DNA of 45,395 bases from Sideroxydans sp. (GTDB lineage: Bacteria; Pseudomonadota; Gammaproteobacteria; Burkholderiales; Gallionellaceae), in the NCBI GenBank assembly GCA_028687425.1, contig JAQUAD010000017.1, positions 1-45,395 on the forward strand, given 5' to 3'. Shown one piece after another: positions 36,080 to 45,395 of the stretch. Within the stretch, counting starts at the first letter, position 1. Each line of letters begins with the position of its first letter. The notes under the pieces were generated by a model, which worked only from the letters and a program-made list of their open reading frames with translations, made no database searches and had not been told where the DNA came from. Both the position numbers and the translations under genes were made by a program.

Positions 36080-37702
36080 CTAGGGCACCAGCCAGTCCTG
36101 AGGCTGTGCCGTGGCAAGTGTGCCGTTGGCTGCATAGCCGCTCACATAAGCGCCCTTGGAGGCGAAGCGCTGTCCCGGCCCGAGGCTCAGGCGCGGATAG
36201 ACGGAAGGCAGCAGCGATTGCTCGGTCATGTGTTCGACACGCTCGATGAAATAGTCGCGCGAATAGTTCTCGTCCATGTGCGCCAGCGCATCGCCGGCCA
36301 AGCTCGCGGCAAAGAAAGCATTGGACTGAATGCGTTCATCCAGCAGCGGCACATTGCGCATGCGCAGCCATACCTTCATGCGTGCCATGCGTGGCGACCT
36401 GCGCGTTGCCGGCTCCGACTGGTCGACGATGTGCAGCTTGTCCAGCCAGCCGTCTGCCGGTTGCAAATGTTCGGGCTGCACCAGGCTGGCCGAGACATAC
36501 AGGCGAGCCAGCCCGGGTGGGGCCTTCTGTTGCAAAGGGAATGCGGCCATGTCCGCTTCGTTCAGCCACAACACCAGTGTTTGTGGGTGTGCCGCATCAA
36601 GCAGGCGCGACCAGAAGGCGGCTGACAGGTCGCCACCGGCGGCCAGCGGTCGGTCGGCCACGGCCAGGCCGCGTTGCTGCAAGGCGCTGCGCAACGATTG
36701 CGCGGCGGCCCGGCCGCCGGCATCGTCGCGGAACACCTGCACGATGTCTCCACTCTGCCCGGCTGCGACCAGATGCTTGGCCAGCACTTCTGCTTCCAGT
36801 TGCGCGCCGCGCGAGAAGTAGAACGAGGCATAGCCGTCCAGCGCCTGTCCCGAAAAATCAATGCTGGGGAACAGACAGGGAATCTCGTTGCGTTCGCAGA
36901 ACGCATGCACCGGCTGCCAGTCGCCGTTGCCTATGCCGCTCAACAGGGCGAACACCGGCTGCTCGCGGTAATACTTGTCCAGTTGCGCCGGCCACGCTGC
37001 CGGCGGCCCCTTCAGCCGCCATTCATGCAACTGCCATGTACGGTAGGACAGGTACATCTTTTCGTTGCCGGTCACATTGCCCCCGTTCTGTCTGCGCCCG
37101 ATCTCGCGCCGCCGCTGTTCCTGGCGCGTGGCGCCGTTCTTGCCGGCGAAGAAGGCTTGCAGCACGCTCAACAGCGCCTGCTCCTGCCGGGCATCGACGT
37201 TGGGTGCGATGACCGTGGCGAAGTGGATCTCGCTGCCGCTCACGCCCGGTGTGCTGGTGCTGGAGAGTTGCTGCAGATAGGCGGCCAGCTGGCCGATCTG
37301 CGCGTCGCTCAGTTCGAAGCGCGGCATCAGTGCATCCAGCCTGCGTCCGTTCGGATCGACGCCTTCACGCAGCGCGCGCGCCAGTGTGTCCAGATCGTAG
37401 GCAGGTCGTGAAGCATCGGTGGCGGCCGGTGGCGTGAACAGCAAATCGCCCGTGATCGGACGCACGGTGTTCGGACCTTCGCCGCCGCCCAGCCCGCTGC
37501 GCCGGTGACAGCGCGCGCAGGCGGCAGTCGGGCCGCTCAACAATGCACCGTTGCGCAACTGCCCGCGCAAGGGTTGGCCGGAAGGCAACATGCCATCCCG
37601 GTAGATATGCTGGCCGGGCAGCATATCTGCCCGGACCGGCGACAGCCACACCAGCACCAGCAGTGCGGCAAGTGCCACACAGCGGTTAATGGTGGTGGGC
37701 AA
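36080..37702 (-). CDS. Cytochrome c fused to a type 1 periplasmic-binding-protein domain
   Basis: 540 residues from the chosen TTG start. A signal peptide (MPTTINRCVALAALLVLVWLSPVRA) precedes a monohaem cytochrome c domain with CARCH at 62-66 and a likely distal Met near 126 (ALMPRF). A long domain from about 160 to the end follows, resembling leucine/amide-binding periplasmic proteins (HFATVIAPNVDARQEQALL, later GDIVQVFRDDAGGRAAAQSLRSAL). The start is uncertain: TTG 37702 overlaps the SCO gene by 17 bp with only a weak ribosome-binding site, while the frame is open further upstream inside SCO. It is secreted and probably shuttles electrons. The role of the binding domain is unknown. Confidence 0.8.
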   Translation of the reverse strand: MPTTINRCVALAALLVLVWLSPVRADMLPGQHIYRDGMLPSGQPLRGQLRNGALLSGPTAACARCHRRSGLGGGEGPNTVRPITGDLLFTPPAATDASRPAYDLDTLARALREGVDPNGRRLDALMPRFELSDAQIGQLAAYLQQLSSTSTPGVSGSEIHFATVIAPNVDARQEQALLSVLQAFFAGKNGATRQEQRRREIGRRQNGGNVTGNEKMYLSYRTWQLHEWRLKGPPAAWPAQLDKYYREQPVFALLSGIGNGDWQPVHAFCERNEIPCLFPSIDFSGQALDGYASFYFSRGAQLEAEVLAKHLVAAGQSGDIVQVFRDDAGGRAAAQSLRSALQQRGLAVADRPLAAGGDLSAAFWSRLLDAAHPQTLVLWLNEADMAAFPLQQKAPPGLARLYVSASLVQPEHLQPADGWLDKLHIVDQSEPATRRSPRMARMKVWLRMRNVPLLDERIQSNAFFAASLAGDALAHMDENYSRDYFIERVEHMTEQSLLPSVYPRLSLGPGQRFASKGAYVSGYAANGTLATAQPQDWLVP

Positions 37703-38315
37703 GTTGGTGGTACTCGCGGATGATGTCGCTGGCGCTGGCGAATCCGTCCAGTCGCAACCAGGGCGTGCCGGGCCCGCCGGCACGCAGATAGGTGGCCGGC
37801 GCGTGGTTCATCTTGTCGCCGCGGAAGGCACCGAATGCGCGCTGCACCGCGATGCTGTCTTCCAGTTTGCCGGTCAGCATCTGCCAGTTCCCGTTGGCCC
37901 GGTAGCGCTCGGCATATTCATGCAGGCGTGCCGGCGTGTCGTGCTCGGGATCGATGGAGATCGACACCATGCGCACCTTGCCGCCCTCCTCGCCCAGTTG
38001 CTGCTGCACCTGCTGGAAGGTGGAACTCATCACCGGACAGATCGAGGTGCAACTGGTGAAGATGAAGTTCAGCATCACCGGTTCATCGCCGGCCAGATCG
38101 TCGCGCAGGGAGACCGCAGCCCCCTCTTTGTCCATCAGCTTGACGTCGGGCACTTCGTAGGCCGCGAGCGTGCTCTGGTAACCGCTGCTGTCGCTCATCA
38201 TCATGTGGTGATGATGGTGCATGTCCTCCATCTCGGCCCGGGCCATGCCGCTGCTTGCCAGCGCGGCGCTGCCCGACAGCAAGGCGAAATACAACATCGT
38301 TTTCAAGTCGTTCAT
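37686..38315 (-). CDS. SCO1/SenC-type copper chaperone
   Basis: 209-residue thioredoxin-fold protein with the copper motif CTSICP (Cys89, Cys93) and the third ligand His171 in KMNHAPATYL. A signal peptide ends after ARA (residue 27). The mature N-terminus is rich in metal ligands, DMHHHHHMMM, which is not part of the SCO core. SCO proteins insert copper into cytochrome oxidase CuA or other periplasmic copper enzymes. Here the neighbours are copper oxidases, so they are the likely clients. ATG at 38315 has AAAGGAGA upstream; 41 more in-frame codons exist but are not protein-like. Confidence 0.92.
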   Translation of the reverse strand: MNDLKTMLYFALLSGSAALASSGMARAEMEDMHHHHHMMMSDSSGYQSTLAAYEVPDVKLMDKEGAAVSLRDDLAGDEPVMLNFIFTSCTSICPVMSSTFQQVQQQLGEEGGKVRMVSISIDPEHDTPARLHEYAERYRANGNWQMLTGKLEDSIAVQRAFGAFRGDKMNHAPATYLRAGGPGTPWLRLDGFASASDIIREYHQLAHHH

Positions 38316-38385: not shown

Positions 38386-40653
38386 TCATTGCACATTGAC
38401 CTGTACCTGGGCCGCTTTGGAAATATAGGGGGGGCCATAGTTGTCTTTCACTGCGTAGGTGAAACGTTCGCTGCCGCTGAAACCGGGGCGCGGCGCGTAA
38501 TGGATGCTGCCGTCCGCATTCACCGTCACCGTGCCGCCCTGATCGGGCTGACCGCCGAACGGGATGAACACCGTCGCCGGGTCGATGTGGTTGGCGGGAT
38601 CTATCGCTGTGTCCGGGTCGCTGTCGTTGGCCAGCACATTGATGTCCAGCGCGGTCGCAGGCGCAGTGGCGGCGAGATCGGCCACCGTCTGCGGTGCATG
38701 GTTGCCGCGCACCGCGATGCTCACAAAACCGGCCTGGGGACTGGCTGTGCCATGGTTGTCGCGCGCCAGATAGGCGAAGCGCACCATGCCGCTGTAGGTC
38801 GCGGGCGGCGTGTAGCTGAAGCTGCCGTCGGCATTGCCGGTCAGGCTGCCGCCGCTGGGCATGCCGTAGTTGGTCGAAGTGAGCGTGTCGCCCGCGTCGG
38901 GATCGCTATCGTTGGCGAGCAATCCCGGCGCGGCGATGTACAGCGTGCCGCCCTTGATCATGCTGTAGCTGTCGTTGGCGGCCAGCGGCGGCCGGTTCGT
39001 GTCCTGTACCGCAAGGTTGAACGATTGCGTGCTGCTCAGGCCGGAGGGATCGGTCGCGCGCACCGTCACGATATGGCTGCCGGTCTGGGCATAGCCCGGC
39101 CACCAGCCTATCCAGGCGATGAAATCGGAAGTGGTCTTGAGCGTCATGCCGGGCGGTGCCTGGTCGAGGCTGAAACTGAGCGGACCGCCGTCGGGATCGC
39201 TGGCCGTCACCTTGTATGCATAAGCATGCCCCGGCAGCGTGGTCAGCAGTGGCGTCGACACGATCACGGGCGGATTGAGCGCCGGCGTGTTCAGGCGCGT
39301 GTAAGCCGACGCCGCATCGACCAGTCCGTAACCGTAGCCGTTGTCCGCCCCGCCCACGCCCAGGTCGCGCGCCGACTGGGTCAGCGCTGCATCCAGTTCG
39401 GCCACGCTGGCATTGGGAAAGGCGCCGGCCAGCAGCGCCAGCGTGCCCGCCGCATGCGGTGCCGCATAGGACGTGCCGGATACATAGGCGTATTGCGGCA
39501 GACCGCCTAGCGACAGGTCGGCCACCTTGATGCCGACGCCGGGCGCGGTCAGTTTGGGAAAGATCAAACCGTCGCAGGCGGAAGGACCGCGTGCGCTGAA
39601 ACTGGCCAGTGCCAGCGTCTGGTCGACTGCGCCGGTGGCAAAACCGGACACGTTGTTGGCCGGGCTCAGGCTGGTCAGCGGTGCCGGGCCGTCGTTGCCG
39701 GCGGCGAAGGTCACCGCGATGCCGGCCGTCTTCAGCGCATCGATGTCGTTGCTGAATTCGGTGATGCACTGCCCGGCGTTACCCACCAGTCCCCATGAAG
39801 CGTTGACCACGTCCGGCGCATCCAGCGTGTTCGGGTTGCCGTCGGGATCGAGCAGCCACTGGAAGGCAAGATGGATGTCGCTGTAAGTGGCCTGCCCCGC
39901 ATCGTTGTAGATCTTGGTCGCGATCCACTGCGCGCCAGGCGCCACGCCGATCGCGCTGCCGCCGATATCGCCGCCGACCATGATGGACATCGTCTGTGTA
40001 CCGTGGCCGGAAGCGTCATAAGGGGTGGCATGCTGGCCGTGCGGATCGAACCAGCTGTTGTTGCCGCCGCGCCATCTGCTCGCCAGATCGGGATGGTTGG
40101 CATCGACGCCGGTGTCCATGTTGGCCACCACCACACCGCTGCCGTTAATCCCCTGCGACCACAGGCCGGGTATCTGGATGGTGTTCAGGTTCCACTCGGG
40201 CGGGGATGCGGCAGCTGCATAATTCACGGCCGGGGCCTGCAACAAAGAGTCGACGCGGATGCTGGCGATGCCTTTGCGTGCGGCCAGTTCGCGGATGACA
40301 TCGGCACGCGCGCTGACGGCGATGCCGTTGATGCCCCACAGCTCGCGCATGCGGTGCGCGCCGCGCCTCTGCAGGAAATCCCGGTGCGGCTTCTGGCTGA
40401 TGCGCGCCTTGTCCTTGAGTGCGCGATACAGTTTGTTATCGCGCTGATGACGATCCTTGTTCTCGAAGCGGTGGTGATCCACCCTGTCGCTCAGGGTGAC
40501 GATCACCTGCATCTCTTCATAGGGGGCGCGCTTGTCCATTTCCCGCTCCAGTTCCGTATCGATGACTGCCGCCTGCGCGACGGAACTGCACGCAAGCCCC
40601 AGCATGACCGCACCGCAAACCCGCTTCATCGCTATCGCTTCTGCGGCCGGCAT
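38386..40653 (-). CDS. Secreted S8 (subtilisin-like) protease with cadherin/Ig-like C-terminus
   Basis: 755 residues: signal peptide, I9-like propeptide (about 45-140), and a catalytic domain with Asp180 (VANMDTGVD), His217 (SGHGTQT), oxyanion Asn320 (AAGNDG) and Ser395 (VSGTSYAAPHAAG), all intact. Three C-terminal beta modules follow: a dystroglycan-type cadherin-like domain (about 458-552) and two VCBS/cadherin-like tandem domains (about 553-755). This end is closely similar to that of the oxidase-like protein at 41265-43193. Start: ATG 40653 has GAGG seven bases upstream, while ATG 40629 gives a more conventional signal peptide. It may mature the neighbouring secreted proteins or itself; its substrate is unknown. 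Confidence 0.88.
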   Translation of the reverse strand: MPAAEAIAMKRVCGAVMLGLACSSVAQAAVIDTELEREMDKRAPYEEMQVIVTLSDRVDHHRFENKDRHQRDNKLYRALKDKARISQKPHRDFLQRRGAHRMRELWGINGIAVSARADVIRELAARKGIASIRVDSLLQAPAVNYAAAASPPEWNLNTIQIPGLWSQGINGSGVVVANMDTGVDANHPDLASRWRGGNNSWFDPHGQHATPYDASGHGTQTMSIMVGGDIGGSAIGVAPGAQWIATKIYNDAGQATYSDIHLAFQWLLDPDGNPNTLDAPDVVNASWGLVGNAGQCITEFSNDIDALKTAGIAVTFAAGNDGPAPLTSLSPANNVSGFATGAVDQTLALASFSARGPSACDGLIFPKLTAPGVGIKVADLSLGGLPQYAYVSGTSYAAPHAAGTLALLAGAFPNASVAELDAALTQSARDLGVGGADNGYGYGLVDAASAYTRLNTPALNPPVIVSTPLLTTLPGHAYAYKVTASDPDGGPLSFSLDQAPPGMTLKTTSDFIAWIGWWPGYAQTGSHIVTVRATDPSGLSSTQSFNLAVQDTNRPPLAANDSYSMIKGGTLYIAAPGLLANDSDPDAGDTLTSTNYGMPSGGSLTGNADGSFSYTPPATYSGMVRFAYLARDNHGTASPQAGFVSIAVRGNHAPQTVADLAATAPATALDINVLANDSDPDTAIDPANHIDPATVFIPFGGQPDQGGTVTVNADGSIHYAPRPGFSGSERFTYAVKDNYGPPYISKAAQVQVNVQ
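38389..39282 (-). repeat. Cadherin/Ig-like module, copy A (in the S8 protease)
   Basis: Codes for the last ~298 residues of the protease. It is the partner of the stretch at 41268-42155, in the same orientation. Shared protein blocks include YAYKV, DPDGGPLSFSLD, APPGMT, KTTSDF, AWIGW, AANDSDPD-type calcium-loop motifs and the IDPATVFIP and GGTVTVNADGSI runs. DNA is also similar over long parts, for example ATCGCTGTCGTTGGCCAG-like sequence in both. It indicates duplication or gene conversion of a whole C-terminal module. Confidence 0.85.
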
Positions 40654-40662
40654 GTTTCATCC

Positions 40663-41193
40663 TCACTCGACGACAAGGTCTTCGATCCGCTTGTCGCCCA
40701 TCACCAGCGTCATCCTGCTGCCGGACTGGATGAAGCGGCCGGGATTGGCGAACAGGATGAAATAGTCCTGGTCGGTCCTGATCTTGCTGCGCCCGGTGGT
40801 GCGCAGCTGTCCCAGCTTGTCGGTGTCCGGCACGCCCAACTGGGCGCCGGTCGCTTCGTCCAGCAGATAGGGGCGTACCTTGCGGTCCAGCATGGCGACG
40901 GCCTTGGCCGGATCGGTGATGCGATAACGGAAGTCCAGGATGTAACCGGCGGCCGAGCGGCGCAGGCCTTGTGGATGTATGCCCAGCTGGCGCTCCGATT
41001 GCGCGGGTGCCGATTCTTCCTGGGCGGGGACGACGTCCTGCGGCGCATACGAATAGCCGCTTCCCATATGACTGGCACAGCCGCCCAGGCTGCCGCCGAC
41101 GATGATTGCAGCCAGCAGCAGCGACAGCCGGCGCGGCGCTGTCGTCTCGTTGAATATCTTGCATCGCTTGCCTGTCGTCTTGTGCTGGTCCAC
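40663..41193 (-). CDS. Predicted outer-membrane/periplasmic lipoprotein, unknown function
   Basis: 176 residues with a lipobox in GGSLGGC after a hydrophobic segment. A low-complexity linker follows, then a domain containing ILDFRYRITDPAKAVAMLDRKV, PYLLDEATGAQLGVP and QDYFILFANPGRFIQSGSRM. I do not recognise the family. The residue after the lipobox Cys is Ala, then Ser, with no Asp at +2, so sorting to the outer membrane is likely by the E. coli rule. The start is GTG at 41193, with AAGGAGG seven bases upstream; a GTG eight codons earlier is less supported. It lies between the oxidase genes and the protease, so it may anchor or assemble that complex. Confidence 0.75.
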   Translation of the reverse strand: MDQHKTTGKRCKIFNETTAPRRLSLLLAAIIVGGSLGGCASHMGSGYSYAPQDVVPAQEESAPAQSERQLGIHPQGLRRSAAGYILDFRYRITDPAKAVAMLDRKVRPYLLDEATGAQLGVPDTDKLGQLRTTGRSKIRTDQDYFILFANPGRFIQSGSRMTLVMGDKRIEDLVVE

Positions 41194-41264
41194 GGTGTGC
41201 CTCCTTCCGTCGTTCACTGTCGTTCAGCTATGCCCGCCCCCGCCCTGCGGGAGCGGTCCCCTCG

Positions 41265-43193
41265 TTACTGCACGTTCACCCGTACATAGGCGGCTTTGGA
41301 GAAGGCCGACGGGGTGTAGGTGTCCTTCACCGCGTAGGCGAACACCTCGCTACCGGTGAAATTCAGCTTGGGCGTGTAAGTGATGCTGCCGTCCGCATTC
41401 ACTGTCACCGTGCCGCCCTTGTCAGGTTTGCCGGTGACCGGGATGAACACCGTGGCCGGGTCGATGTGGTTGGCTGCATCGATGACCGTATCCGGATCGC
41501 TGTCGTTGGCCAGCACATTGATGGTTACCGCGGTGTTGGCGGCGGTGCTGGCGATGTCATCCACCGTGACCGGAGCCCGGTTGTTCCGCACTGCGATCGA
41601 GACATAACCCTTGGTATGGCTGGCCAGTCCCCAGTTGTCGCGCGGCACATAGTTGAAGCCGGTCATGCCGGTGAAGCCTGCCGGCGGCGTATAGGTGAAG
41701 CTGCCGTCCGGGTTGCCGCTCAGGGTGCCGACCGAGGGGGTGCTGTAGTTGGTGGCGGTGAGCGTATCGGCGATGTCCGGATCGCTGTCATTGGCCAGCA
41801 CGCCGGCTGCCGCCACGTTCAATGTGCCGCCCTTGATCATGGTGTAGGCATCGTTGGCTGCCAGCGGCCGGTCGTTCACGTCGGCCACCGTGATGCTCCA
41901 CGACTGGGTGGTGAACAGGCCGAGCGGATCGGTCGCGCGTACCGTCAGGTCATGTACGCCGATCTGCGCGTTGGTCGGCCGCCAGCCGATCCAGGCAACG
42001 AAATCCGAGGTGGTCTTGATGGTCATGCCGGGCGGAGCCTTGTCCAGCGAGAACGAGAGCGGACCGCCGTCCGGGTCGGTTGCCATCACCTTGTAGGCGT
42101 AGGACAGGCCCTGCGTCGCTGCCAGTCCCGGCGTGGAAGTGATCGCCGGCGGGTTGCCGCTGCCGGAGACTTCCAGCTTGGCCAGCATGCCGCTGTCCTG
42201 TGTTGCGCCCGTGCTCAGGTTGAGCCGGCGGTCGTACACCGTGTAGCGGGTCGGTGTAGCGCCGGCTTGCAGCTGCGGCGTCAGGATGGCGTCGATGGTC
42301 TTGGCGGCCGGCAGCAACACCGAATATTGCTGGCGCGGGTTGCCCGGCCACGGATAGGGATTGCCGTCCTCGGCGATCATCTGCATGTACTGGCCGTTGA
42401 TCACCGGCACGTGGGTCTGCAGTCCCGCGTTGAGGAAGCGCAGCAATGTCTTCTGCCCTGCCGGTAGCGTGGCCAGCGGCGGCGTGCCGGTAGTGTATGG
42501 CTGGCCGTTGATCAGGAAATACTTGGGCTGGTAATCGAAGGTGCTGGTCGGCCCGTTCAGGGTGCCGTAAGTGCCGCCGGCTACCGCCGCATGCAGAGCG
42601 GGATCGATCTCGCTGAACAGCAATGTCACCTCGTTATCGAACGGCACGCCGGCGTAGGCCTGGCTCGCCGTCGCGTTGCGCGTCACGCTGCCGTACAGTC
42701 CCATCTGGATCTGCACTTGCGGGTGGGTGCCGCTCTGGTACAGATAGGTGCCGGGTCGCATGGCGTTCCATGTGTAGTCGGCGGTACCGCCGCCGACCAG
42801 CGCTTCATGGGTGAATGAACGCACGCGGGCATCGGCCGAAGGGCGTGGCCCGCTCATGCCGTTGTCCCACACCGGCGTCATCTGCGCGACCTGGCCGGGA
42901 ATGACGAGCGAGGTCGGCTCGGGCAGGCCGTTCTTGAGGTGCACGGTCAGCGTGGTGTCGCCGGGCGGCACCGTCAGCGCCGGCCCCGGCACGGTGGCGG
43001 TGCCCGGCAGGAAGCTGGCGTCGGTCAATGCGTAGCCCCACATCGGCACGCTCGCGCCGCCGGGCATGGTCACGTTCAGCGCTTCAGCGCGCAGCCAGTA
43101 TTCGACGGCGCAGGCCGGGGCCGAGGCGGTGACCAGCCCGGCCAGCAGCAGGGTCCGGCCGAGTCTGCTCATGGTTGGCAATTGGGTTTTCAT
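41265..43193 (-). CDS. Multicopper-oxidase-like protein without copper ligands, with cadherin/Ig-like C-terminus
   Basis: 642 residues: signal peptide (cleavage near ACA, residue 29), two cupredoxin-like domains (about 30-175 and 190-345), then three beta modules (347-642) matching the neighbouring protease. The cupredoxin scaffold is clear (PGPALTVPPGDTTLTVHLKNGLP, PGTYLYQSGTHPQVQIQMGLYGSV, LLRFLNAGLQTHVPVINGQYMQMIAEDG). The His-x-His pairs that bind the trinuclear centre are absent at all four places, and there is no type-1 cysteine. It is probably a structural partner of the two other oxidase-like proteins encoded just upstream. The start has GAGGAGGAA upstream. Confidence 0.85.
   Translation of the reverse strand: MKTQLPTMSRLGRTLLLAGLVTASAPACAVEYWLRAEALNVTMPGGASVPMWGYALTDASFLPGTATVPGPALTVPPGDTTLTVHLKNGLPEPTSLVIPGQVAQMTPVWDNGMSGPRPSADARVRSFTHEALVGGGTADYTWNAMRPGTYLYQSGTHPQVQIQMGLYGSVTRNATASQAYAGVPFDNEVTLLFSEIDPALHAAVAGGTYGTLNGPTSTFDYQPKYFLINGQPYTTGTPPLATLPAGQKTLLRFLNAGLQTHVPVINGQYMQMIAEDGNPYPWPGNPRQQYSVLLPAAKTIDAILTPQLQAGATPTRYTVYDRRLNLSTGATQDSGMLAKLEVSGSGNPPAITSTPGLAATQGLSYAYKVMATDPDGGPLSFSLDKAPPGMTIKTTSDFVAWIGWRPTNAQIGVHDLTVRATDPLGLFTTQSWSITVADVNDRPLAANDAYTMIKGGTLNVAAAGVLANDSDPDIADTLTATNYSTPSVGTLSGNPDGSFTYTPPAGFTGMTGFNYVPRDNWGLASHTKGYVSIAVRNNRAPVTVDDIASTAANTAVTINVLANDSDPDTVIDAANHIDPATVFIPVTGKPDKGGTVTVNADGSITYTPKLNFTGSEVFAYAVKDTYTPSAFSKAAYVRVNVQ
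41268..42155 (-). repeat. Cadherin/Ig-like module, copy B (in the oxidase-like protein)
   Basis: Codes for residues 347-642 of the copper-less oxidase-like protein and pairs with 38389-39282. Both copies have the same three domains in the same order, both end in VNVQ, and length differs by only a few codons. No terminal repeats or mobile-element signs flank either copy. Confidence 0.85.
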
Positions 43194-43211
43194 GATCGCG
43201 TTCCTCCTCGT

Positions 43212-44495
43212 TTACGGAATCGGCGCACTGGGCGGTTCGATGACCAGCATGGTCATCATGCCGCCGGGGAAGATGTCGTTATTCACGATCTCCCGTTCGT
43301 TGTGCGAGTGCCACATATGGAAGTAGCCGGCATTCAGGTTGATCAGGGCGCCGCCCGGCGGCAGCGCACCGAAGTTGCCGAGGAACGGGCTGCCGCTGTA
43401 GTGCGCGCCGAAGCTCAGGTCCTGCAGGTTGGGCAGCACCACCGGGATCGGTTTGCCATGGTCGGGGGCATATTCATGCGGTTCCATCGGGTCGGAAGCG
43501 CTGGTGTGGCCGTACATGTCCCAGCCCAGGCGTTCGCCGGTCCACTCGAAGATGGTGTCGAAGGTCTCGCCGGGTACCGCGCGCAAGGTGAATTCCGACT
43601 GTCCCAGATCGGGGCCGGCACCGGGTGCGCTCTCCAGCATGCGCCCGTCGTGCGCGATGATGGTGAAGTTATTGCCGTGGGTGTGCAGCGGGTGCAGGTC
43701 GCGTCCGGCATTGACCACGCGCATCAGCAGCCGGTCGCCGGGGTGCATGCGCGGCAGGCAGTTGTAGGGCTGGTTGGGCAGCCAGGGTACGTTGGCATCC
43801 AGCAGCGTGTCAGGCGCGGTGCGGCCATTGATGAACCACAGCACCGGGTGATAGGCGCTGGTATCCGCGCTGATCGCGCTGCCCGCGGCCGCCTGGATCG
43901 CGACCTGATCGTGGATGGCCGGATCCATCTCGGTCAGCAGGAACAGGTATTCGTGATCGAAGCGGGTATCGGGGTGGCTGTAGGCCTGATGCAGCGGATC
44001 GATGGCGGATGGCCGCACCACGAGTGTGCCGAGCAGGCCCATCTCCACTTGCAGCGCGGGCTGGGTGCCGCTGTGATAGAGATAGGTGCCGGGCTGGCTG
44101 GCGACGAAGGTGTAGCTCACGCTGCCATTGGATGCCGCCACTTCGCGTGTCATGATGCCGGCGCTGCCGCCGCTGGCAACCACACCCTGCTGGCCGGGGA
44201 ACACGATGGAGACCGGTACCGGCAATTGGTTGGAGAGGTTGACGGTGACCGTATCGCCCTGATTCACGATCAGCGTCGGCCCCGGATATTGCATGTTGCC
44301 GTTGCCGTTGGCGTAACCCCAGCTGTAGATGCTGGCGCCGTCGCCGGCCGAGATGTAGTCCGCCTTCGCCGTCAGGTTGAAGGTCGGGCCGCTGATGCCT
44401 TCGACCACCGCCCACACCGGTTCCATTGCGCTGAACAGAAACAGTGCGAGGCTCAAGACCAGCGATCGCGGCAGTTTGTGCAGTAGTGTGTCCAT
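43212..44495 (-). CDS. Multicopper-oxidase-like protein carrying only the C-terminal copper-cluster motifs
   Basis: 427 residues with a signal peptide (cleavage around AVWA or nearby, residue 29) and two to three cupredoxin domains. The first domain lacks copper motifs (VSIVFPGQ, YLYHSGTQPALQVEMG). The last has HPLHTHG (His268, 271, 273) and MWHSHNERE (His396, His398), two of the four His-x-His pairs needed for a trinuclear copper centre. Ser397 stands where the type-1 cysteine normally is, and the following His of HCHxxxH is missing, so this domain has no type-1 copper. It ends in FPGGMMTMLVIEPP. It follows the first oxidase-like gene by 37 bp; GGGAGG precedes the ATG. Confidence 0.87.
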   Translation of the reverse strand: MDTLLHKLPRSLVLSLALFLFSAMEPVWAVVEGISGPTFNLTAKADYISAGDGASIYSWGYANGNGNMQYPGPTLIVNQGDTVTVNLSNQLPVPVSIVFPGQQGVVASGGSAGIMTREVAASNGSVSYTFVASQPGTYLYHSGTQPALQVEMGLLGTLVVRPSAIDPLHQAYSHPDTRFDHEYLFLLTEMDPAIHDQVAIQAAAGSAISADTSAYHPVLWFINGRTAPDTLLDANVPWLPNQPYNCLPRMHPGDRLLMRVVNAGRDLHPLHTHGNNFTIIAHDGRMLESAPGAGPDLGQSEFTLRAVPGETFDTIFEWTGERLGWDMYGHTSASDPMEPHEYAPDHGKPIPVVLPNLQDLSFGAHYSGSPFLGNFGALPPGGALINLNAGYFHMWHSHNEREIVNNDIFPGGMMTMLVIEPPSAPIP

Positions 44496-44532
44496 GATGC
44501 CTCCCAGTGTTCCTGGCTAGTCTTCCGCCACG

Positions 44533-45395
44533 TTATTGAATGACGATCTCGGTCATCATTCCGCCGAAATCCTGATCGAAGTTGCTCAGATAGTTGAGGT
44601 TGCTGGTGTAGAGGAAATATGTCCCCGCCGGCACCCCCGCCGTATCGATGATGACGTCAGCCGATTCGCCGCCGCCCAGCGTCACCGAATTGGTGTCGTA
44701 GTACAGATCCTTGCCGCCGGGGCCGCGCGCGATGTGCGCCCCGCTGCCGACCACATGCATCTTCAGTCCCAGCGTGGCCAGCGTGTAATAGTTGGTCACG
44801 CTCAGATTGGTCAGTCTGAGCAGCAGCTTGTTGCCTTCCGTCGCCCTGTCGATCTGCATCAGTGCGTTGAGTTTCTGCGATTCGATGCCGCCGTTCTCGG
44901 CCGGGCCCGGCAAGGGGCCGGGTTTGGTGGTGTCCGGGTAGCCGCGTCCGTTGAGCATGGCATAGGTGTCGCGCATGTTGGCGAACGGCAAGGGCTGGAT
45001 GCCCAGGTGCAGCTCGTGGAACATGTGGTCCATCGAACTGAGCTGTATCGCATACGACTTGTCATAGCCGGTCGAACCGTCGCCGTCGTTGTACACGAAG
45101 CGCGTGTAGTTCCTGCCCTGATAGGTTTTACTGGTGCCGTCCTGCGCCGGTCGCACGTAGATCTGCCCCAGCATGCCCATCTGCATGTGTTCGGCCGCTT
45201 CCTGGTGGCAGTGGTACATGAAGGTACCCGGCTGCACCACGTTGTAGAAGTAGGTCAGGCTGGAACCCATGTTGACGCCGAAGGAGCCGTCCGGCATGCC
45301 GTCGAACACCGGTGCGGCATTGGGGAAACCGTGGAAGTGCACCGTGTGCGGATCGAACAGGTCGGGCCGCATCGACATGCCGACGTTGGTCAGGG
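44533..45395 (-). CDS. Multicopper-oxidase-like protein carrying the N-terminal copper-cluster and type-1 motifs (5' end outside window)
   Basis: At least 286 residues; the frame is open to the right edge, so the signal peptide and domain start are missing. Numbering from the ATG at 45378, HTVHFHG gives His11, His14 and His16. MYHCHQEAAEHMQMGM gives His56, Cys57, His58, His64 and Met69. Together these supply a complete type-1 site plus two His-x-His pairs, as in the N-terminal domain of nitrite-reductase- or ceruloplasmin-like enzymes. The second domain has lost its copper motifs (TNYYTLATLGLKMHVVG; YTSNLNYLSNFDQDFGGMM). The remaining ligands are found in the next protein. Likely a periplasmic or exported metal/phenol oxidase subunit. 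Confidence 0.87.
   Translation of the reverse strand, partial: LTNVGMSMRPDLFDPHTVHFHGFPNAAPVFDGMPDGSFGVNMGSSLTYFYNVVQPGTFMYHCHQEAAEHMQMGMLGQIYVRPAQDGTSKTYQGRNYTRFVYNDGDGSTGYDKSYAIQLSSMDHMFHELHLGIQPLPFANMRDTYAMLNGRGYPDTTKPGPLPGPAENGGIESQKLNALMQIDRATEGNKLLLRLTNLSVTNYYTLATLGLKMHVVGSGAHIARGPGGKDLYYDTNSVTLGGGESADVIIDTAGVPAGTYFLYTSNLNYLSNFDQDFGGMMTEIVIQ

Follow-up and report, generated by a model that had tools for sequence, protein, structure and literature searches.

We analyzed a 45,395-nucleotide stretch of DNA from Sideroxydans sp. (hereafter the window), which is an entire contig (C27) of a 2.79-Mb genome. At one of its ends lie three consecutive genes, here called P1, P2 and P3, whose products (about 400, 427 and 642 residues, respectively) each contain two cupredoxin domains, with Cu-oxidase Pfam matches in both halves of every chain. 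The first of them, P1, is cut by the contig end. The distribution of copper ligands in the encoded proteins supports the view that P1 and P2 jointly, and neither of them alone, hold one complete ligand set of a multicopper oxidase. The three genes and their motifs are as follows (signal peptides were recognized by eye, and the roles of the ligands are those of known oxidases).

44533..45395, minus strand: P1, truncated at the contig end; of its two cupredoxin domains, the first has the type-1 copper set and four trinuclear-cluster histidines
45331..45348, minus strand: P1 motif H-T-V-H-F-H; one type-1 histidine and one cluster histidine pair
45172..45213, minus strand: P1 motif HCHQEAAEHMQMGM; cluster histidine pair, type-1 cysteine, type-1 histidine and axial methionine
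43212..44495, minus strand: P2; signal peptide and two cupredoxin domains, the first without a copper site, the second with the other four cluster histidines
43677..43694, minus strand: P2 motif H-P-L-H-T-H; cluster histidine pair and one further invariant histidine
43302..43310, minus strand: P2 motif H-S-H; second cluster histidine pair
41265..43193, minus strand: P3; signal peptide, two cupredoxin domains without copper ligands, then He_PIG, Cadherin_4/5 and Big_9 repeats

Copper ligands of P1 and P2

Domain 1 of P1 contains the motifs HTVHFHG and HCHQEAAEHMQMGM, and no His-x-His pair is present in its domain 2. In P2 the arrangement is the reverse, with no His-x-His pair in domain 1 and with HPLHTHG and MWHSHNE in domain 2. 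P3 is devoid of such pairs. A first-pass annotation of this DNA had described the three genes with the same coordinates and ligand pattern, all of which we found again; the C-terminal repeats of P3 were not part of that description. It had also cautioned that the missing 5' part of P1 might restore a full set of histidine pairs to one chain. The start of P1 was located at one end of contig C51 from this genome (bases 4-321), where it is 80% identical to residues 1-106 of a complete relative; about eight residues fall into the sequence gap between C51 and C27. Because this N-terminal part contains no His-x-His pair, no full set is restored, and P1 is a chain of about 400 residues with a single half-site. 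The complete P1 of a relative (genome G075) likewise has only one half-site.

To describe the conservation of these ligands, we counted them by alignment column over 85 loci, comprising the best 80 of 311 relatives from a contig scan, the window and loci L024-L027, each with one P2 gene (L023 was left out as a copy of L028). All three histidines of the P1 motif HxxHxH were present in 81 of the 81 sequences covering it (83 rows, 2 gaps), and the H, C, H, H and last M of HCHQEAAEHMQMGM in 82 of 82 (83 rows, 1 gap). In P2, H268, H271 and H273 were found in all 85 sequences, and H396 and H398 in 84 of the 84 that cover them (85 rows, 1 gap). Since the ligands are invariant across loci, the split pattern is not a matter of chance. 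At the matching alignment columns, the ligand set was absent from domain 1 of P2 and from P3. Furthermore, none of 251 open reading frames (ORFs) of the family (at least 100 bits; copies in L023 included) had both half-sites in one chain. As a control, we examined 11 hand-picked ordinary oxidase ORFs from loci fetched earlier, and all 11 had HCH and at least four His-x-His pairs in one chain; 4 of the 11 are close mutual relatives, and the count excludes L130, L131, the nitrite-reductase-like L021 and two cut loci (L013 and L015). At the start of domain 2, a conserved histidine is seen in a similar setting in all three proteins of the window (EMDPAIH in P2, EIDPALH in P3 and SMDHMFH in P1).

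Distribution of the trio and a two-gene relative

A search of 100 genomes of the family revealed strong P2 relatives (E <1e-40) in five genomes besides the source genome (G075, G081, G017, G050 and G069), all of which have the same three genes. The remaining matches among the 37 genomes hit were weaker and included ordinary oxidases. At the level of the class (369 genomes), matches to the P1 profile and to the P2 profile with E 1e-30 or better fell in the same 10 genomes, the source genome among them, and the two genes were neighbours in 13 places. Judged by record titles, the 80 loci of the contig scan carry 13 phylum labels and 7 are unlabelled; most of these loci are metagenome assemblies, and individual labels may be wrong. 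The record of Cupriavidus metallidurans CH34 also carries the trio. In a Paraburkholderia record (L158, 7302-18721), the one with usable annotation among those examined, the three genes are annotated just as hypothetical proteins, and two copies of the trio occur on two contigs of one gammaproteobacterial assembly (L074 and L076). In a Thioploca assembly (L060, 9968-11246), P2 has in-frame stop codons ahead of its last motif.

Gene order is almost uniform. P1 lies directly upstream of P2 in 83 of the 85 loci, both exceptions being cut by contig ends, and P3 lies directly downstream of P2 in 83. The full order P1-P2-P3 was observed in 81 of 85, and the misses (L041, L104, L054 and L078) coincide with contig ends; the search of other genomes for the same gene trio, which the first-pass annotation had recommended, is thereby answered positively. 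The genes are mostly separated by gaps within about 60 bases or overlap slightly, and a few large overlaps result from choosing the longest ORF. These data bear on the possibility that the trio is an artefact, that is, one long gene broken by an assembly error, a frameshift or decay. P1 is indeed cut by a contig end in the source assembly. However, each of the three chains has its own start and a signal peptide (by eye) in the source genome, and the same layout recurs in those 81 loci, which come from many assemblies, and in C. metallidurans CH34. We rejected this explanation, to which virtually no weight can be given.

In addition, we identified a second family of adjacent two-domain genes with complementary half-sites, here called A and B, in genomes of both the family and the class. 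In gene A, both His-x-His pairs lie in domain 2 and domain 1 has no oxidase site; in gene B, the type-1 set and the pairs lie in domain 1, and domain 2 has no such pairs. The A/B loci are:

L127, 3163-5086
L128, 3806-5846
L129, 4227-6287
L133-L156

These 27 loci comprise 24 of 26 matches to A (the window's own P2 aside; G258:C44 and one place in G410 were left out) and three loci from the family. Both genes were found in 25 of the 27, the other two (L134 and L156) being cut by contig ends. All 25 B genes have the complete site, and 26 of the 27 A genes have both pairs (that of L154 lacks the second). Stray His-x-His occurrences were limited to two B genes, each with a single one after the type-1 motif (L152 and L154), and five A genes, where they fall outside the two pairs (L134, L135, L140, L148 and, as an overlapping one, L152). 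Among the 369 class genomes, 23 matched A (E 1e-15 or better), one of them solely through the P2 of the window, and 30 matched B (E 1e-20 or better), of which the weaker ones are perhaps ordinary oxidases. A search of plasmids for the A/B family gave no match. Several details of A genes were also recorded: HCH stands as the second domain-2 pair in some (L144, 1342-2541; L145, 1495-2535; L146, 1474-2505; L151, 3-593), the A gene of L153 (699-4058) is the C-terminal end of a 1119-residue ORF, and in L156 (4262-4921) the A gene is followed by the start of a lipoprotein-like frame with a long Thr/Ser-rich stretch, which runs off the contig before an oxidase site could appear. The family also includes an ordinary type C enzyme, in which a single chain has all ligands (L132). 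Given L132, the A/B pairs and the trio, one-gene, two-gene and three-gene forms coexist.

The A/B family and the distribution of P1 and P2 are also informative about another explanation, in which the half-sites never meet: P1 would be a blue-copper protein that carries electrons, and P2 would bind copper independently of it, both acting in a chain with a nearby cytochrome. A gene for a MofC-like cytochrome c protein does lie in the same cluster in 23 of the 85 loci (window counted), as such a chain would have it. However, the four cluster histidines in each of P1 and P2 are invariant, and a lone blue-copper carrier would not need them. Moreover, both proteins lack a partner site within their own chain, the one was never found without the other in the 10 carriers among 369 genomes, and the A/B family repeats the same complementarity. 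We consider this explanation very unlikely.

To examine how the chains are related, we built a tree by a quick method, with branch support from the Shimodaira-Hasegawa-like approximate likelihood ratio test (SH-aLRT), from P1, P2 and P3 of 15 of the 85 loci together with 23 A and 23 B sequences (A of L144 and L145 was left out). With all columns, P2 and P3 were sisters (SH-aLRT 97) and A joined them (96). When the ligand motifs were removed, support for P2 and P3 was 93.9, and that for the group of A, P2 and P3 fell to 9.5. The tree of domain 1 gave 98 and 96 for these groupings, with B not forming one group, and the tree of domain 2 did not resolve. In topology tests, neither a group of P1 and B (approximately unbiased test, p-AU 0.70) nor a group of P1, P2 and P3 (p-AU 0.60) was rejected. 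Because the deep branching order is not established, a staged history of the three forms is not established either. The sister relation of P2 and P3 would suit a duplication of one seat of a ring.

Relation to known oxidases and possible assembly

The best match in the PDB for both the P1 and P2 profiles was 3g5w, the Nitrosomonas europaea blue copper oxidase. In the alignment, 3g5w has the HCH type-1 motif in its first domain, and the HTH of P2 domain 2 is aligned with the HTH of its second domain. Type C oxidases are defined by a type-1 copper located in the N-terminal domain; oxidases with two domains assemble as trimers, in which two protomers contribute the residues of the cluster (PMC13151041). 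Like these enzymes, the trio has two cupredoxin domains per chain and type-1 ligands in an N-terminal domain, and it is domain 2 that gives the other cluster histidines. Unlike them, it does not have the eight cluster histidines in one chain: a type C enzyme is encoded by one gene that supplies all ligands, with a site in each subunit, whereas in the trio the ligands are distributed over two genes and accompanied by a ligand-free third.

The first-pass annotation had proposed that P1 and P2 complete one active centre within a six-domain ring of the ceruloplasmin type. The shared centre agrees with the complementary ligands, with the adjacency of the two genes (83 of 85 loci) and with their co-occurrence (10 of 369 genomes); the ceruloplasmin arrangement did not hold. 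Like the trio, ceruloplasmin and the bacterial six-domain oxidases (MnxG and relatives) have six cupredoxin domains altogether and one functional centre, and the trio, with one type-1 site and one possible cluster, could on this count be a ceruloplasmin-type oxidase cut into three. In those enzymes, however, all domains lie in one chain and the type-1 copper sits in even domains, namely domains 2, 4 and 6 of ceruloplasmin and domain 2 of the bacterial enzymes, whose cluster lies between domains 2 and 3, as described in PMC3600357. The trio has three chains, with the type-1 site in domain 1 of P1, and its nearest structures are two-domain enzymes. Because the type-1 copper of ceruloplasmin sits in even domains and that of P1 in the N-terminal domain, ceruloplasmin is not the right parent. 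The arrangement was rejected on domain order, and we regard such an origin as highly improbable.

Other known systems are more distant. The OmpB/MofA outer-membrane oxidases of metal-reducing and metal-oxidizing bacteria are extracellular, and a gene for a MofC-like cytochrome, sometimes together with genes of the SCO1 type, lies in their cluster (PMC5566968); in these respects they are like the trio, which has MofC-like and SCO1 neighbours in 23 and 26 of the 85 loci, respectively. However, OmpB/MofA is a single large oxidase chain and the trio consists of three; the trio of Sideroxydans is described as not homologous to MofA/OmpB in PMC5566968. With regard to copper nitrite reductases, none of the NCBIfam models reached its cut-off for P1 or P2, and P3 passed models of repeat domains only; for the NirK model (TIGR02376), P2 scored 38.5 and P1 33.7 bits against a cut-off of 296.3. 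NirK has two cupredoxin domains and forms a trimer with a copper site between chains, whereas P1 has HCH and further His-x-His motifs of oxidases. PDB entry 9cck, whose chains come in two lengths at a ratio of 8 to 4, was considered as a heteromeric precedent and dropped, as domain 1 aligns identically between the two sequences, which are apparently a single protein present in two lengths; a literature search for this entry found nothing.

On the basis of these results, we propose, with a probability of roughly 0.8, that the trio encodes the subunits of a single secreted, heteromeric multicopper oxidase whose ancestor was a two-domain oxidase of type C. By analogy with two-domain homotrimers, where domain 1 of a chain meets domain 2 of its neighbour, domain 2 of P2 would dock on domain 1 of P1. 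Electrons would enter at the type-1 copper of P1, and O2 would be reduced at a cluster common to P1 and P2. P3 would most likely occupy the third seat in a structural, ligand-free role. If the type C trimer is kept, the interface of P2 domain 2 with P1 domain 1 is the only one capable of forming a cluster and, with one copy of each chain, the cyclic order would be fixed as P1, P3, P2, so that every chain contacts domain 1 of the following one through its own domain 2. Such a trimer would have one centre instead of three.

The position of P3 requires separate consideration. The two-domain model was spanned by P3 in 73 of the 73 ORFs with both ends in the locus. Beside the trio there is commonly a large adhesin-like protein, usually of about 1700 residues; it measures about 1740 residues beside P1 both in the source genome (G000:C51, 388-5592) and in L023 (11874-17111), with an SdrD_B match and, in L023, an fn3_3 match below the curated cut-off. 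In 50 of the 85 loci it is encoded by its own gene upstream of P1, although at odd distances in three of these; in 12 loci it is fused to the N-terminus of P1 and in 10 to the C-terminus of P3. One locus has it as an independent gene downstream. In the other 12 it was not seen; some loci are cut by contig ends. Because this protein is fused to P1 in some loci and to P3 in others, the gene arrangements suggest that P1 and P3 belong to one assembly. P3 and the large neighbour might together hold the enzyme outside the cell.

Alternatively, the enzyme could consist of just P1 and P2, perhaps as a trimer of 2:1 composition such as we suggest for A/B; P3 would then be no more than an adhesin or anchor, its cupredoxin part being a leftover that lies outside the ring. 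The A/B pairs point in this direction, having no third such chain alongside in the fetched stretches, most of which extend just about 1.5 kb on each side. A role in anchoring would also fit the repeats of P3 and the 10 loci in which P3 begins an ORF of 2230 to 2880 residues that includes the large neighbour. However, the two-domain core of P3 is complete in all 73 of the above ORFs, P3 has its place directly behind P2 in 83 of 85 loci, and it is the sister of P2 in the tree above, which would be expected of a copy that took over a seat in the ring. Thus, we consider an enzyme of P1 and P2 alone unlikely.

Several observations weigh against the three-subunit oxidase. First, with a single P2 sequence as query the best PDB match was 2zwn, and 3g5w ranked lower; the first domain of 2zwn has the same HCH motif in the alignment. 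Second, the ORFs of the 85 loci include no natural P1-P2 or P2-P3 fusion, and the search for single-chain fusions that the first-pass annotation had suggested therefore came out negative; in addition, the frames at the 13 P2 places in the 369 genomes, of 434 to 640 residues, are too short for both two-domain chains. Third, P3 could be an anchor only. The correlation of gene distances over 80 loci (P1-P2, 0.79; P2-P3, 0.70; P1-P3, 0.65) speaks for the three-subunit oxidase, but it is a weak point because it would be expected for any co-inherited genes.

Neighbouring genes, substrate and significance

Downstream of the trio, the window contains four further genes of the cluster on the same strand:

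40663..41217, minus strand: small protein, probably a lipoprotein (lipobox recognized by eye), without a Pfam match
38386..40653, minus strand: subtilase (Peptidase_S8); last 296 residues 68.6% identical to the C-terminal part of P3
37686..38438, minus strand: SCO1/SenC copper chaperone
36080..37783, minus strand: MofC-like protein; cytochrome c domain and periplasmic binding domain, true start probably nearer 37708

Relatives of the small lipoprotein were found in 66 of the 85 loci, of the S8 protease in 29, of SCO1 in 26 and of the MofC-like protein in 23. It should be noted that these counts include the window, from which the queries were taken, and that many fetched stretches end before such genes could appear. 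The SCO1 protein may load copper into the enzyme. The identity over the last 296 residues of the protease (38389-40653) and P3 (41268-43193) suggests a copied surface module.

Similar genes have been noted previously. Three tandem oxidase genes with MofC-like and chaperone genes are mentioned for Sideroxydans in PMC5566968. In Sideroxydans lithotrophicus ES-1, the products of Slit_1816-1818, together with SCO1 and a cytochrome, reached higher levels in late cultures on magnetite than with Fe(II)-citrate, and similar clusters are named in Paraburkholderia, Ralstonia, Anaeromyxobacter and Steroidobacteraceae (PMC12016527). Slit_1816-1818 are very probably the same trio, as they share its order and its large third protein without copper motifs. 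They are described as three cupredoxin proteins, two of which have canonical oxidase motifs, whereas a half-site per protein is not stated in the available text (PMC12016527). No description of a split centre encoded half per gene was found in the accessible portions of the open-access literature searched. Thus, the gene trio is already in print, and the split centre is apparently new within that literature.

With respect to the substrate, an extracellular metal such as Fe(II) is our leading guess. The magnetite proteome of the probable orthologues (PMC12016527) hints at solid Fe(II) or other extracellular metals. To our knowledge, many carriers of the trio belong to groups not known as iron oxidizers, which tempers the Fe(II) reading.

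Multicopper oxidases are currently divided into two-domain enzymes, which are trimers, and three- and six-domain enzymes, which are monomers (PMC13151041). Genes that each encode half a centre have no place in this scheme, and motif searches that demand all motifs in one chain would miss both halves. We tentatively put forward, as possible rather than probable, a class of obligately heteromeric multicopper oxidases that extends across many phyla. A one-gene homotrimer with three centres would have given rise to two-gene forms (probably two A and one B) and to three-gene forms (each seat with its own dedicated chain), and every step would have retained one shared centre. Through duplication and complementary loss, the symmetric ring would have become an asymmetric one that can be anchored and steered at one seat, here towards mineral surfaces. 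If this is true, it would be a natural case of a symmetric enzyme ring turned asymmetric, with the one-, two- and three-gene forms all extant, and the trio would be a candidate extracellular metal oxidase in iron-oxidizing bacteria.

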